From: an uncultured Trueperaceae bacterium
GTDB taxonomy: Bacteria; Deinococcota; Deinococci; Deinococcales; Trueperaceae
DNA: 64,000 nt
Direction of reading: 5' to 3'
NCBI GenBank assembly: GCA_913057685.1
Contig: CAJXOA010000001.1
Location: 62,001-126,000 of the forward strand
Shown here: positions 1,101 through 24,283 of the stretch, piece after piece
Layout: the number at the start of each line of letters is the position of its first letter
Numbering within the stretch: the stretch's first letter is position 1
Notes under the pieces: generated by a model
Database searches by the model: none
Seen by the model: the letters and a program-made list of their open reading frames with translations, nothing else
Told to the model about the DNA's origin: nothing
Program-made: the position numbers and the translations under genes

Positions 1101-3913
1101 GGGTCCGCGTCGCCTCGGCCGGGACCGGCAAGACGACCCGCCTCGTCGCGCGGTTCCTGGAGGCCATCCAGGGGGGCACCCCGCTGCGCCGCATCGCCGG
1201 CGTCACCTTCACGCGCGCCGCCGCGGCGGAGCTCCGCGAGCGGGTCGGGGAGGGCCTCGACGTGCTGCTGGAGGAGGGCCGCTACCTCGACCTGGTCCGC
1301 CTCGACCCCGCCGCACGGGAGGCGGTCGAGCGCGCCCGGCGCGAGCGCGACGGGGCGACGTTGACGACGATCCACGGCTTCATGGCGTCGGGCTTGCGCC
1401 TCTCCGCACCGCAGTTGGGGCTGGATCCGGCGTTCGGGACGCTGCCGCCGTGGGAGGCGCAGGCGACGTTCGACGAGGAGTTCGCCGCGGTCCTCCTCCT
1501 CGCCGAGGACCCGGAGCACCCCCTCCACGGCCCCGCCACCCGCCTGGCGGGGCGGGCGGCGGCGCTGGCGGGCGTGCTGTTCCGGCAGCGCTCCCTCGCG
1601 CCCACCCTCGCGCCCGCCCCCGACGACGCGGACGCGGCCGACCTGCTGGCGCTCTACCGCGCGGCGTACGGGCGCTACCAGGCGCGGATCGGTGCGGCGC
1701 GGCTCGCGCCGGCGGAGATCGAACGGCGCGCCCTGGCGATGGTCGAGGTGCCCGCCGCCCGCGCCCGCCTCGCCGCCCGCGCGCCGCTCGTGATCGTGGA
1801 CGAGTACCAGGACGTCAACCCGGTGCAGGGCCGCTTCTTCGCGGCGCTCGAGGCGGCCGGCGTCGAGGTCGAGGTGGTCGGCGACCCGAAGCAGTCGATC
1901 TACGGCTTCCGTCAGGCGGACGTCGAGGTGTTCCGCACCGCCCTCGCGCACGGCGAGGCGCTCGAGCCGCTCACCCGCACCCGCCGCCACGCGGCGCTCG
2001 TGACGCGCTTCCTGAACGCCCTGACGCGCACCCTCGCCGGCCGGGGGGAGGGCTTCGGGCCGGACGAGGCGCCGCCGGTCGAGCCCGCCGGCGCGCAGGC
2101 CGACGTCCACGGCCGCGTCGAGATCCACTGGGTGACCGGCGCGCCGCGGCTGCCGGACCTCCGGCCGCACGAGGCGGCCGTCCTCGCCGAACGCCTCCGG
2201 GTGGCGCACGAGCGCGACGCGATCCCCTGGTCGGACATGGCGGTCCTCGCCCGCAACTACGCCGGCCTGGAGCGGGTGCGCGAGGCGCTCGCGGCGCACG
2301 GGGTGCCGGCGGTCCTGCGGCAGGGCCGCGGGTACTACGAACGCAGCGAGATCCGCGACCTGGTGCACGCCCTTCGGGTGGGGATCGAGCCGACCGGCCC
2401 CAGCCTCGCCCCCTGGTTGCGCGGCCCGTTCGGGGGGCGGACGCCGGACGCGATCGATGCGATCGTTCGCGCCGAGGATCCCCTCGCCGTCCTGCGCGAG
2501 GCGCACCCCGACGTCGCCGCCCGCCTCGACGCGACCCGCGAGGCGGTCCGCGCGGGGCCGCTCGGGGCGCTCCGGCGCCTGCTGCGCGAACCGTTCCTGG
2601 ACGGCGAACGGTTCGTCGACCGGCTCGATGCGCGGCAGCGCGACAACGTCGACGCGTTGCTGTTCGAGATCGCCGAACGCCCGCCCGGTGCGCTGGAGGT
2701 GCTCCTCGAACGCCTCGACCTGTTGTCGCGCCGCGCGAAGGAGGCGGGCGACGTCCCCGCCGAGGGCGAGGGCGTCACCCTCGTCACGGTGCACGGGTCG
2801 AAGGGCCTCGAGTGGCCGTTGGTCGCCGTCGCCGACGTCGGCGCGCAGGGCGGCGGGCGGCCGGAGCCGCTGCACGTCGTGGACGGCGCCGTGCACCTCC
2901 CCGGCGGGCCGGGCTTCGACGCCGCCCGGGAGGCGGACCTGCAGCGCGCCCGGCAGGAGGCGTCGCGGCTGTTGTACGTCGCGGCGTCGCGGGCGCGCAC
3001 CGTCCTGATCCTGACCGGCAGCGTGCCCGACCGCGGTCCGCAGGGGTGGGCGGCGTCGCTCGCCGCGATGCGGGTCGGGCCCGACGCCGCCCCCCGCGAC
3101 GCCGACGGCATCCTCCTCGCCGTCCATCCGTTGCCGGCCGACGGCGCGTCGCCGCCGGTCGCGGCGGACGCCCCGCCGGAGGGGGAGGCCGCCCCCCTCG
3201 CCGAGGCGCCGTGGACCCGGGCGGCGTTCCCCGCCGGCGACCTCCCGCCGGTCGAGAGCCCCTCGCGCGTGCGGGGGGCGGAGGACGGAGGCGGAGGGGC
3301 CGCCCTGCAGCCGGCCGCGCCCGGCACGCCGTCCGCCCCCGCGGCGGAGGACGGGCCGGCCGAACCGATTCCGCCGGGGGCGGCGCGCGAGGAGGGGCGC
3401 CTCCCCGGGCAGGCGGTGGCGGTGGGGACGCTCCTGCACGACGCGATCCGCCGCGACGCCGATCCGGACGACGCCGTGGAGATGGACCTCCTGCGCGCGC
3501 AGGAGGTGATGTTCCCCTACGAACCCGACGAGCAGGCGCGGTTGCTCGAGGAGGTGCGCGCCATGCTGCGGACCTACCGGGGGTTGCTGGGGGGCCCGCT
3601 GCCCCCCCTCGAGGCGCGCGAGCGGGACCTGCGCGAGTGGCCGGTCGTCCTCCCCGACGGCGCGCAGGTGTGGCAGGGCGTCATCGACCGGCTGTACCTC
3701 GCCGACGGGACGTGGACGCTGGACGACTACAAGACCGACCGGACGATGCATCCGGGACGCTACGCGTTTCAGTTGGCGACGTACCGCGAAGCGGTCCGGC
3801 GGGCGTTGGGCGTCGATCCGGTCGCGCGACTCGTGAACCTCCGCGACGGCGCGACGTACCCGTTCGACCCCGCCGACCTGGACGCCGCCTGGGCGGCGCG
3901 GCCCGGGGCCTAA
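1097..3913 (+). CDS. addA: AddA-like UvrD-family helicase with C-terminal nuclease domain
   Basis: A 938-residue ATP-dependent DNA helicase/nuclease for double-strand break end processing. Walker A is at residues 7-13 (SAGTGKT) and motif II at ~234 (VDEYQD). Motif III-like GDPKQSIYGFRQAD is at ~262 and motif V-like TVHGSKGLEWP at ~565. The C-terminus has the PD-(D/E)XK signature GVIDRL (~862) and DYKTD (~876), diagnostic of RecB/AddA-type nucleases. GTG at 1097 is chosen because it overlaps the upstream stop (GTGA) and puts Walker A at the extreme N-terminus, as in the family. A Pro/Ala-rich linker (~residues 690-770) separates helicase from nuclease. It is shorter than B. subtilis AddA (~1200 residues). 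Confidence 0.85.
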   Translation: MRVRVASAGTGKTTRLVARFLEAIQGGTPLRRIAGVTFTRAAAAELRERVGEGLDVLLEEGRYLDLVRLDPAAREAVERARRERDGATLTTIHGFMASGLRLSAPQLGLDPAFGTLPPWEAQATFDEEFAAVLLLAEDPEHPLHGPATRLAGRAAALAGVLFRQRSLAPTLAPAPDDADAADLLALYRAAYGRYQARIGAARLAPAEIERRALAMVEVPAARARLAARAPLVIVDEYQDVNPVQGRFFAALEAAGVEVEVVGDPKQSIYGFRQADVEVFRTALAHGEALEPLTRTRRHAALVTRFLNALTRTLAGRGEGFGPDEAPPVEPAGAQADVHGRVEIHWVTGAPRLPDLRPHEAAVLAERLRVAHERDAIPWSDMAVLARNYAGLERVREALAAHGVPAVLRQGRGYYERSEIRDLVHALRVGIEPTGPSLAPWLRGPFGGRTPDAIDAIVRAEDPLAVLREAHPDVAARLDATREAVRAGPLGALRRLLREPFLDGERFVDRLDARQRDNVDALLFEIAERPPGALEVLLERLDLLSRRAKEAGDVPAEGEGVTLVTVHGSKGLEWPLVAVADVGAQGGGRPEPLHVVDGAVHLPGGPGFDAAREADLQRARQEASRLLYVAASRARTVLILTGSVPDRGPQGWAASLAAMRVGPDAAPRDADGILLAVHPLPADGASPPVAADAPPEGEAAPLAEAPWTRAAFPAGDLPPVESPSRVRGAEDGGGGAALQPAAPGTPSAPAAEDGPAEPIPPGAAREEGRLPGQAVAVGTLLHDAIRRDADPDDAVEMDLLRAQEVMFPYEPDEQARLLEEVRAMLRTYRGLLGGPLPPLEARERDLREWPVVLPDGAQVWQGVIDRLYLADGTWTLDDYKTDRTMHPGRYAFQLATYREAVRRALGVDPVARLVNLRDGATYPFDPADLDAAWAARPGA

Positions 3914-18794: not shown

Positions 18795-18846
18795 CCCTTC
18801 GCCGTTCCACCCCGGCGTCCTGCGGGCGGACCGGCGCGTTCCGCCG

Positions 18847-20199
18847 TTAGCGGTACATCTCGTACATGTCGTACATGTCGGACGTCCCCCCGTCGCCACC
18901 CATGGGGTCCATGCCGTACCCCGGGGAGCTCATGCCGGTCATCGGCTCCATGCCGTACATCCCGCTCATGCCGCCCCCGCCGTACATGCCGCTCATGCCG
19001 CCCCCGCCGTACATCCCGCTCATGCTGCCCATCCCGCCCATCCCGTAGAACCCCCCGCCGGACGCCCCGTCCCCCCCGGAACTCCCGCCACCCCCGGCGT
19101 TCCCGTTCGCGCCCGCCGTTCCGGACGTCCCCTGCATCGCGCTCATGCCGCCCATCGGTTGCATGCCGTACATCCCGCTCATGCCGCCCGCCCCTGCCAT
19201 ACCGTAGTAATCGACGAAGAGGCTGAAGCGCCCGGACGGTGCGCCGTCGAGCGGATCGGCGAGGGCGTAGCGGATGGCGGGCCGACCGTCGTCCGTCGTC
19301 GTGCGCTCCGCGTCGGTGAGCACCACCCACCGCTCGTGCACGTCGTCACCGAACCAGGTGAGCACCGCGTTCGGAGGGTCGGCGCCGAACGATTCCGGAC
19401 CCCCGTCCCAGCGACCGACGTACGCCTCGGCGTCGAGGGTCTCGTGGCGGCGGTAGGGCGCCTCGGTGAACCCGAAGACGTCGCGGTCGAAGGTGGCCAC
19501 CAGGGTACGGGGGTCCTCGAGCGCGACGCGCCCGCCGGCGTGAACGTACAGCCACGGCACGACCTCCCGGATCGCTGCCGCCGCCGGGTCGCGGGGCAGG
19601 ACCGCTTGCGCCGTGCGGGTCGCCGGGTCGAACGCCAGCATCCCGCCGGACGGGACGTCCACGCCGGTCCACGCACGGATGGTGTCGCTGTGCGTGACCA
19701 TCACGACCGTTTCGTCCGCGCCGACGTGATCGATGGTTTCCGCCAGCCGGTCCAGACCGAAGCTGCGCGTCGCCCCGAACGTCCGGTTGAGGCCCGAGAA
19801 CGTCGTCACCGGACCGAGCCCGAGGAGGCGCGCGGTGTCCCGCGCGCGGCAGTACTCGCTCGCCAACACCCGGTCGGGGGTCACGCCCGCCGTGCGCAGG
19901 GCCGCTCCGAGGGCGTTGGCCTGCACCCGTCCGCGGGGGTCGAGGTTGCGTTGCGTGGCGCAGTCGGTCAGGTCGAAGCGGGTCGGGTCGTCGTCCCCGG
20001 TCGCGAGGGCGTGGCGCACGAACAGGATGCGTCCCTCCGCAGCGGCCGCGAACGTCGCGACGTCGACGGGGGACGCCGTCGATTGGGCGTGGGCGACGGT
20101 GGGGACCAGGACGGCGAAGGCGAGGGCGGCGAACGCGAGCACGGCGGGGCGGGCGACCGAGCGTCCGACGGTGCGTACGCGGGGGTGTGCGTGGTTCAT
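18847..20199 (-). CDS. Secreted histidine phosphatase with Met/Gly/Tyr-rich C-terminal tail
   Basis: 450 residues in three parts. (1) A signal peptide ending VAHAQS, then a histidine-phosphatase domain: FVRHALATG (phospho-His RHA variant of RHG), EYCRARDTARLLG and VTHSDTIRAW with the second His. (2) A ~95-residue module (ATFDRDVFGFTEAP ... PNAVLTWF ... PAIRYALADPLDGAPSGRFSLF) also found in the preceding gene's product. (3) Residues ~331-450, a low-complexity tail with ~23 Met and ~11 Tyr in Gly/Ser background, including four MSGMYG copies and ending DMYDMYEMYR. ATG 20199 overlaps the upstream stop (ATGA). Tail function unknown. Its Met density recalls copper-binding Met-rich segments, which is inference only. 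Confidence 0.75.
   Translation of the reverse strand: MNHAHPRVRTVGRSVARPAVLAFAALAFAVLVPTVAHAQSTASPVDVATFAAAAEGRILFVRHALATGDDDPTRFDLTDCATQRNLDPRGRVQANALGAALRTAGVTPDRVLASEYCRARDTARLLGLGPVTTFSGLNRTFGATRSFGLDRLAETIDHVGADETVVMVTHSDTIRAWTGVDVPSGGMLAFDPATRTAQAVLPRDPAAAAIREVVPWLYVHAGGRVALEDPRTLVATFDRDVFGFTEAPYRRHETLDAEAYVGRWDGGPESFGADPPNAVLTWFGDDVHERWVVLTDAERTTTDDGRPAIRYALADPLDGAPSGRFSLFVDYYGMAGAGGMSGMYGMQPMGGMSAMQGTSGTAGANGNAGGGGSSGGDGASGGGFYGMGGMGSMSGMYGGGGMSGMYGGGGMSGMYGMEPMTGMSSPGYGMDPMGGDGGTSDMYDMYEMYR
18955..19023 (-). repeat. 27-bp tandem repeats encoding GGGGMSGMY
   Basis: About two and a half near-perfect copies of a 27-base unit (minus strand) in the tail of the histidine phosphatase gene. 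It is in frame and therefore a coding minisatellite that could vary in copy number. Confidence 0.75.
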
Positions 20200-20726
20200 C
20201 GGGTGGCCTCCCGGCAGACGAGGCGGGTGTCGCAGCCCTCCGCGACGACGGTGAAGAACAGCGAGTACGGCCCCGTGACGGGGGCGTCGAGCGGTTCGGC
20301 GAGGGTGTAGCGGATCGTCGGGACGTCCGCGTCCACGACCGTCGCATCCGCGACGATCACGAACGCCTCCGCGACGCCGCCGTCCGGCGCGGTCCACGTC
20401 AGGACCGCGTTCGGGGGGCCCGTGTCCGCCGGGAACCCGTCCGCCCACAGCGACGCGAACGTCGCGAGCGTCAGGTGGTCGTGCAGCCGGTCGGGGCGGT
20501 CGGTGAACGCGAGGATCTCGTCCTCGGACGTCGTCGTGAGGGTACGGGGGTCGTCCAGCGTCGCGGACGGCCCGATCTGGGCGGCGAGCCACCGCGGCGG
20601 CGCCGCATCCGTGGTGGGGGTCGCCTGCGCGAACGCGGCACCGACGCACGCGACGACGGCGAGGAGCGTCAGGCGTCGCAGGAGGGGGCGGGGGTCGGTC
20701 CGGGGGTCGGGGGCGCGGTCCGGCAT
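20196..20726 (-). CDS. Secreted protein sharing a module with the downstream phosphatase
   Basis: 176 residues: an Arg-rich start, a signal peptide (LLAVVACVGAAFAQA), then one ~110-residue module. The module (DDPRTLTTTSEDEILAFTDRPDRLHDHL ... GPPNAVLTWTAPDGG ... PTIRYTLAEPLDAPVTGPYSLFF) aligns by eye with the middle region of the adjacent histidine phosphatase. Two Cys near the C-terminus (CDTRLVC) may form a disulfide. I do not recognise the family. ATG 20726 lies 7 bases after the transaldolase stop, and the gene overlaps the phosphatase start by 4 bases, so the two are probably co-translated. Confidence 0.7.
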   Translation of the reverse strand: MPDRAPDPRTDPRPLLRRLTLLAVVACVGAAFAQATPTTDAAPPRWLAAQIGPSATLDDPRTLTTTSEDEILAFTDRPDRLHDHLTLATFASLWADGFPADTGPPNAVLTWTAPDGGVAEAFVIVADATVVDADVPTIRYTLAEPLDAPVTGPYSLFFTVVAEGCDTRLVCREATR

Positions 20727-20733
20727 GCCGGGC

Positions 20734-21858: not shown

Positions 21859-22394
21859 GGGGTCTCCTCCTGGGGGGCGGGCGTCCGCCCGGGGGGCGCG
21901 GCGTCCGCCGCCGTGCTTCGCACGGGAGCATACGCGTCGTCGGGCGCCCCGTGGGCGGGCGCCTCCTGCGCCGGGGCCTCGTGCGCGGGCGCACCCTGGG
22001 CGTCGGTCGGGGGGCGGGCGGGGAGGACCAGCGTCGCGGTCGCGACGCGCGCCGGTGCGCCGCGCGTGACGTGGACCTGCGGCGTGGCGTCGGGCGTGGC
22101 GTCGGGCGTGGCGTCGGGCGTGGCGTCGGGCGCGGCGTCGGGCGCGCCGTCCGCCGGGACGGTCGCGACCCCGTCGGTCGGGATGCGCTCGCGCCTCCTG
22201 CGCCAGCGCCGGCGGGCGCGCAGTGCGCCGCCGGTGGCGGCCACCGTCCCGAGGCCCCCGATCAGGCCGACGGGGAGGGCGGGACCCGGCCCCGCCTGGA
22301 AGCGCAGCCATTCGGTGGCGAGCGCGACCACGCCGCCCACCAGCACCAGCACCCCGAACGGCGACGGGGGCTTGGGTGGGGGGTCCGGCGTCAC
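21855..22394 (-). CDS. Membrane protein with Pro-Asp-Ala-Thr repeats, unknown function
   Basis: 179 residues. Two hydrophobic helices near the N-terminus (FGVLVLVGGVVALATEWL and LPVGLIGGLGTVAATGGAL) are followed by a basic stretch (RARRRWRRRRER), then a low-complexity tail with four consecutive PDAT units and many Ala/Pro residues. The positive-inside rule places the tail in the cytoplasm. No family recognised. GTG 22394 overlaps the stop of the RusA-like gene (GTGA), and its own stop overlaps tal. Confidence 0.6.
   Translation of the reverse strand: MTPDPPPKPPSPFGVLVLVGGVVALATEWLRFQAGPGPALPVGLIGGLGTVAATGGALRARRRWRRRRERIPTDGVATVPADGAPDAAPDATPDATPDATPDATPQVHVTRGAPARVATATLVLPARPPTDAQGAPAHEAPAQEAPAHGAPDDAYAPVRSTAADAAPPGRTPAPQEETP
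22081..22145 (-). repeat. 12-bp tandem repeats encoding Thr-Pro-Asp-Ala
   Basis: Five to six copies of a GCGTGGCGTCGG-like unit inside the membrane-protein gene, in frame, giving PDATPDATP-type sequence. Confidence 0.8.
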
Positions 22395-23605: not shown

Positions 23606-24283
23606 TCAGCTCTCCGGCGCCGGTTCGAGGCCGGTCGCGACGAGCTCGCGCCCCTCTCCAGCGTCGCGCACGTCCAAGCGAACGCGGGGGAGCGGCTGGA
23701 TGGCGGGGCCGGCGACCGCCCGCCCGGCGCGGGTGGGGTCGAACACGCTCAGGTGGCAGCGGCACACGAACTGCGGGCCGTCGGCGCGGTAGTTGAAGGC
23801 GAAGGCGATCGCTTCGGCGTCGCGGTTGAGCGCGACGACGCAGCCGAGGTGGGTGCACACCCGCGAGTAGGCGGCGTAGTGGCGGCCGTCCACCTCCCGC
23901 GACCCGGCGACCGGGCCGGGGAGGCGGACGGCGATGGCGGGCACCCCCTGGTAGACGAACGTCACCTCGTCCCAGACCGCACCGAAGCGCGCGAGGGGGG
24001 CGACGAGCTGGGGGGGTCCGTCGACGAAGGTGGGGGTGGGGTCGGGGCGGCGCTTGAAGAAGTGCACGTTCGCCGCCTGGAAGACGCCCCACGCCCCCGC
24101 GCCGGCGGCGAGGAGGACGGGGAGGCGCCACAACCAGGCGTTCAGGGCGCGGCGTTCGGTGTCGACCGACCCCTCGGGATCGCGCGGGGCGTCGGGCGCG
24201 ACGTCGGGCGTGACGTCGGGCGTGCCGTCGTTCGGAGCTCCGTTCGTCGCGTCGTTCGTCGCGTCGTCCCGGGGCGCCGTCAT
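23606..24283 (-). CDS. Membrane-anchored Rieske [2Fe-2S] protein
   Basis: 225 residues. An Asn/Asp/Pro/Thr-rich cytoplasmic head (about 45 residues with PDVTPDVAPD repeats), one membrane helix (LPVLLAAGAGAWGVFQAA), then a Rieske fold. Cluster ligands are in CTHLGC and CRCHLSVFD. The usual second box is CPCHGS, so the Pro and Gly positions are changed. Likely an electron carrier of a bc1-like or related complex, although no cytochrome b gene is visible. ATG 24283 overlaps the stop of the CcmI-cytochrome fusion, making it the last gene of the ccm operon. Confidence 0.85.
   Translation of the reverse strand: MTAPRDDATNDATNGAPNDGTPDVTPDVAPDAPRDPEGSVDTERRALNAWLWRLPVLLAAGAGAWGVFQAANVHFFKRRPDPTPTFVDGPPQLVAPLARFGAVWDEVTFVYQGVPAIAVRLPGPVAGSREVDGRHYAAYSRVCTHLGCVVALNRDAEAIAFAFNYRADGPQFVCRCHLSVFDPTRAGRAVAGPAIQPLPRVRLDVRDAGEGRELVATGLEPAPES

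Follow-up and report, generated by a model that had tools for sequence, protein, structure and literature searches.

A predicted exported histidine phosphatase carrying an unnamed beta domain and a methionine-rich, putatively disordered tail in a lineage-specific two-gene insertion of a Trueperaceae bacterium

Gene A, located in the 64,000-nucleotide stretch of DNA that was analysed as a whole (hereafter, the window), encodes a predicted exported histidine phosphatase that is fused to a beta domain of an unnamed family and ends in a Met/Gly/Tyr-rich tail. We tentatively regard protein A as a lineage-specific exported phosphatase whose beta domain runs out into a tail that is disordered, rich in Gly, and variable, a reading that we place somewhat short of an even chance. 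The features discussed below are as follows.

18847..20199, reverse strand: gene A, predicted exported histidine phosphatase with an unnamed beta domain and a Met/Gly/Tyr tail (450 amino acids; ATG at 20199, stop codon at 18847-18849)
20086..20199, reverse strand: putative Sec-type signal peptide of gene A, approximately residues 1-38 (ending in VPTVAHA, followed by QS), judged by eye from the sequence
19564..20085, reverse strand: histidine phosphatase branch 1 domain of gene A, approximately residues 39-212 (RH, second Arg, and second His conserved; two invariant Cys)
19213..19563, reverse strand: unnamed beta domain of gene A, approximately residues 213-329 (WLxV..FTxxPxRxH..PPNAVLTW..SLF)
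18850..19212, reverse strand: Met/Gly/Tyr-rich tail of gene A, residues 330-450, predicted to be disordered
18952..19030, reverse strand: 2.9 near-exact 27-bp tandem units (GGGGMSGMY) inside the tail
20196..20726, reverse strand: gene B, predicted exported stand-alone beta domain protein (176 amino acids), paralogue of the middle domain of protein A
18795..20733, no strand assigned: insertion of genes A and B, flanked by SURF1 and transaldolase and lacking in four congeners

The match to PF00300 (E-value of 1.2e-8; 35.2 bits against a cutoff of 21.7) confirms, at the level of sequence, that protein A belongs to branch 1 of the histidine phosphatase superfamily. In an alignment of protein A with exported phosphatases of Deinococcus deserti and Peteryoungia plasmids and with two more distant family proteins, two Cys residues are invariant together with the Arg and His of FVRHA, the Arg of CRAR, and the His of VTHS. 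The protein presumably has phosphatase activity. Because it falls below the curated cutoffs of SixA (TIGR00249; 19.7 versus 74.5 bits) and NF004841 (55.6 versus 178 bits), we treat it as a superfamily member without an assigned subfamily. The signal peptide, as read by eye, suggests that the protein is exported to the periplasm or the surface, and a sequence-only reading of this DNA, which had described a secreted histidine phosphatase, agrees with these results. In the AlphaFold2 model of full-length protein A, the phosphatase part is unreliable because the underlying alignment contained no phosphatase rows.

No other instance of the gene A architecture was found in 111 genomes of the phylum, so that a single genome is known to have it; no full-length orthologue was found in the four congeners, and no second strain of the source species was found. 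A weak match to protein A in genome G014 lies in an unrelated region (an alpha/beta hydrolase-like gene) and was taken as chance. A viral origin was rejected, as searches of viral contigs and of phages gave no match.

The beta domain family is marked by the conserved motifs FTDRPxRxH and PPNAVLTW and by a C-terminal SLF(I/V)D strand, which appear in protein A as FTEAPYRRH, PPNAVLTW, and SLFVD; gene B has FTDRPDRLH and PPNAVLTW. The family HMM gives E-values of about 1e-34 in protein A and 1e-31 in protein B, both of which are part of that model. Searches of Pfam, NCBIfam, and PHROGs gave no significant family match for the domain. Its structural model has a pLDDT of 93.5 and a pTM of 0.87. A fold search of the PDB returned nothing at E<=1e-3 (best TM of 0.31; all listed matches at TM <=0.40), and a profile search of PDB sequences also gave nothing significant. 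Fold matches in BFVD to uncultured phage proteins were set aside as too weak (best E-value of 0.012; TM up to 0.50). The family can now be recognised by its motif, and it has a high-confidence model that matches no solved fold significantly.

A scan of 84,980 genomes detected 29 loci with the beta domain, distributed over Alpha-, Beta-, and Gammaproteobacteria, Flavobacteriales, and one Poseidoniales (archaeal) bin, and related proteins are also present on rhizobial megaplasmids (family loci L033-L061 and L085-L108). The distribution is sporadic, with 9 of the 296 genomes of one order holding the domain, and it is often multi-copy or tandem (up to six per genome, in the L034 genome). The C-terminal extensions are very varied. 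Most homologues have short tails, and some carry what we take to be BspA-like repeats and Lcl-like (DWFLPSKDELN) domains. In two rhizobial homologues (L085; L088 at 2853-3698), tails of 109-119 residues directly follow the domain, with 31-33 Gly, 13-15 Tyr, 6-8 Phe, and no Met. On three rhizobial megaplasmids, a HAD hydrolase gene lies directly upstream of the beta domain gene (L085:1032-4657, L087:2719-4678, and L088:16-4597), with an arylsulfatase upstream in two of the three; L088 carries two tandem copies of the domain. No conserved gene neighbourhood of the domain was seen in the marine loci. We consider this unnamed family a more general finding than the Met-rich tail.

The stop codon of gene B overlaps the start codon of gene A (ATGA), and its own start lies 7 nt after the transaldolase stop codon. 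Given this overlap and the short gap, transaldolase, B, and A read as one unit that is probably co-transcribed, and A and B probably form a lineage-specific, translationally coupled pair. Protein B is 48% identical to the beta domain of protein A over 105 amino acids, and the two domains are sisters in the tree (support of 0.95). None of the four congeners has the pair, and all of them retain SURF1 and transaldolase. G004, the nearest of the four (87% identity in SURF1 and 91% in transaldolase), has 7 bp between the stop codons of these two genes, versus a separation of 1.9 kb in the window. The insertion shows no base-composition sign of transfer (GC of 0.737 versus 0.733 for the window). Another congener, G002, carries a GGDEF-type gene in the same interval (L024:4290-6239), which suggests that this spot tolerates insertions.

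The tail of gene A comprises 45 Gly, 23 Met, 13 Ser, and 11 Tyr among its 121 residues, without His, Cys, or Lys; the Met and Tyr counts are exactly those that the sequence-only reading had given approximately for the last ~120 residues. Pairs of Met spaced by three occur 16 times, compared with 4.1 expected from composition-preserving shuffles (none of 20,000 reached 16), and spacings of 1, 2, 4, and 5 do not occur. Other open frames of the window hold no more than 8 Met in any 121-residue stretch, and the binomial probability of 23 Met is 4e-16 at a Met frequency of 2%. The GC content at the third codon position is nearly equal in the tail (0.93) and the remainder of the gene (0.92), and this match indicates that the frame is genuinely coding. 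A description of the repeats as 27-bp tandem units holds for the 2.9 near-exact copies at 18952-19030 (94% match), whereas the remainder of the repetition is degenerate, with units of 9, 18, and 36 bp. The Gly codons are mixed (GGC 21, GGG 20), which together with the conserved Met register suggests that the protein sequence has been maintained, not the DNA repeat alone. The tail is probably disordered, as its pLDDT in the AlphaFold2 model is about 40.

Searches for the tail among 61 relatives, by protein and by DNA pattern, found only the tail itself; the protein search extended to plasmids with the same outcome, where the low-complexity filter of BLAST limits the test. The Met tail is absent from related phosphatases and from related beta domain proteins. 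A Gly-rich disordered tail after the beta domain is not unique to gene A; its Met richness is. Elsewhere in the window, 12-bp tandem repeats (up to 98% identical) are located at 22081-22144 and 24190-24267. Those at 22081-22144 encode DATP repeats in an open frame, and repeat-derived low-complexity protein is therefore not unique to the tail in the window.

The reading that we favour, a tethered exported phosphatase, builds on the architecture, the catalytic residues, the insertion, the paralogy of A and B, the predicted disorder, and the Gly-rich tails at the same position elsewhere. The phosphatase domain would cleave phosphomonoesters outside the cytoplasm, the beta domain may act as a module that recognises a substrate or partner, and the tail, which would be flexible, mildly sticky, and enlarged in gene A by repeat expansion, may hold the enzyme in the envelope or matrix. 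By analogy, the Gly/Phe/Tyr tails on rhizobial members may likewise retain their proteins. Two observations stand against this role of the tail. A Gly-rich tail is not the rule in the family, in which most homologues are short-tailed, and a generic flexible tether would call for nothing nearly as specific as 23 Met in a strict three-residue register.

A copper- or silver-binding array is unlikely. In this reading, Met residues at i and i+3 would coordinate a number of Cu(I) or Ag(I) ions, and the protein would either act as a metal buffer at the envelope or be metal-regulated itself. The tail has sixteen MxxM pairs on a protein that appears to be exported, and its GM[QE]PMxGM elements are similar to the CrdA site MMXEMPGMXXMXEM (PMC9182242). 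The CrdA copper site has neither His nor Cys and uses Met69/72/75/78, spaced by three (PMC9182242), from which Cu(I) binding by the tail appears chemically possible. The Met-only MxMxxM motif of Ctr1 is described as Cu(I)/Ag(I)-selective (PMC9117721). However, the tail lacks the MPGM motif and MxM spacing, the protein lacks a CopC domain, the insertion contains no copper gene, and a register of three can arise from a 9-bp repeat unit alone. For the disordered His/Met-rich N-terminus of PcoB, resistance required a minimal set of His residues (PMC12509749), and the tail has no His. The sequence-only reading had drawn on the convergent oxidase-assembly operon for its copper proposal. CtaA, CtaB, and SURF1 do adjoin gene A convergently, with A and B on the opposite strand, but the copper argument taken from them finds no support: because the congeners lack the A/B insertion and G004 has 7 bp between the SURF1 and transaldolase stop codons, these genes are incidental neighbours. 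The sequence-only reading had named absence of the tail in orthologues as a refuting result, and by that criterion the copper claim is weakened: the architecture did not turn up elsewhere in 111 genomes of the phylum, and related phosphatases and beta domain proteins have no Met tail. The case also shows that an argument from operon neighbours, such as the adjacent copper oxidase genes here, can lead astray if the gene in question is a lineage-specific insertion.

Neutral or near-neutral expansion is also improbable in our view; here, replication slippage on a GC-rich 9-bp unit would have added a disordered tail that is tolerated but without function. The 9/18/27/36-bp repetition and the single known occurrence of the tail fit such an origin. 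Against it, the open frame and third-position GC are kept across 121 codons, synonymous diversification has proceeded while Met was retained, and Gly-rich tails recur after the same beta domain in rhizobia.

We consider it quite improbable that the tail is an oxidant sink, in which surface Met residues would scavenge hypochlorite or peroxide to shield the enzyme or the envelope, a role that has been proposed for MrpX and BcrX. The Met-dense, apparently exported segment would suit this role, periplasmic Met-rich peptides of Azospira and Brucella are oxidant sinks (PMC8315932), and the genome encodes two Oxidored_molyb proteins, of the superfamily that includes MsrP. However, the Lys-free tail has no MXKDX repeats, the operon is transaldolase-B-A with no adjacent msrPQ, and one of the two molybdoproteins, encoded beside a cytochrome c, seems closer to a sulfite dehydrogenase than to MsrP. 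At L110:1171-3242, a molybdopterin oxidoreductase gene is followed by a cytochrome c gene, which looks like a sulfite dehydrogenase pair. A combined reading, with the beta domain as a new fold serving exported esterases (here by fusion to a histidine phosphatase, in rhizobia beside HAD hydrolases and arylsulfatases that are secreted) and a Cu(I)- or oxidant-responsive Met tail making a metal- or redox-gated extracytoplasmic phosphatase, is a long shot.

Protein A is an example of a putatively catalytic exported phosphatase fused to a member of an uncharacterised domain family, one that ranges over bacterial phyla and also occurs in one archaeal bin. The natural, probably disordered tail with 23 Met provides a test case for soft-metal binding versus oxidant absorption versus mere tethering.

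Compared with known systems, protein A resembles MrpX/BcrX in its apparently exported, Met-rich low-complexity segment but differs from them in having no MXKDX repeats and no msrPQ operon and in the fusion of its tail to an enzyme (PMC8315932). With the Met-rich copper sites of CrdA, CopC, and PcoC, it shares apparent export and Met spaced by three and, with CrdA, the lack of His and Cys; it differs from these proteins in that its tail has no MXXMPGM motif, Pfam shows no CopC match, a CopC-type fold is lacking, and the tail is repetitive and predicted to be disordered. The exported small branch 1 phosphatases (PF00300) of Azospirillum, rhizobial, and Deinococcus deserti plasmids have the same RH pair, second Arg, second His, two conserved Cys, and putative N-terminal export signal as protein A. 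They are single-domain proteins of ~186-190 amino acids, and none was found with a beta domain or tail, in contrast to protein A. Other members of the PPNAVLTW family, hypothetical proteins of rhizobial megaplasmids and marine bacteria, have no phosphatase fusion and no Met-rich tail, unlike protein A; they have the same domain at 25-44% identity, are exported and often tandem or multi-copy, and the rhizobial members end, as protein A does, in a Gly-rich C-terminal tail.
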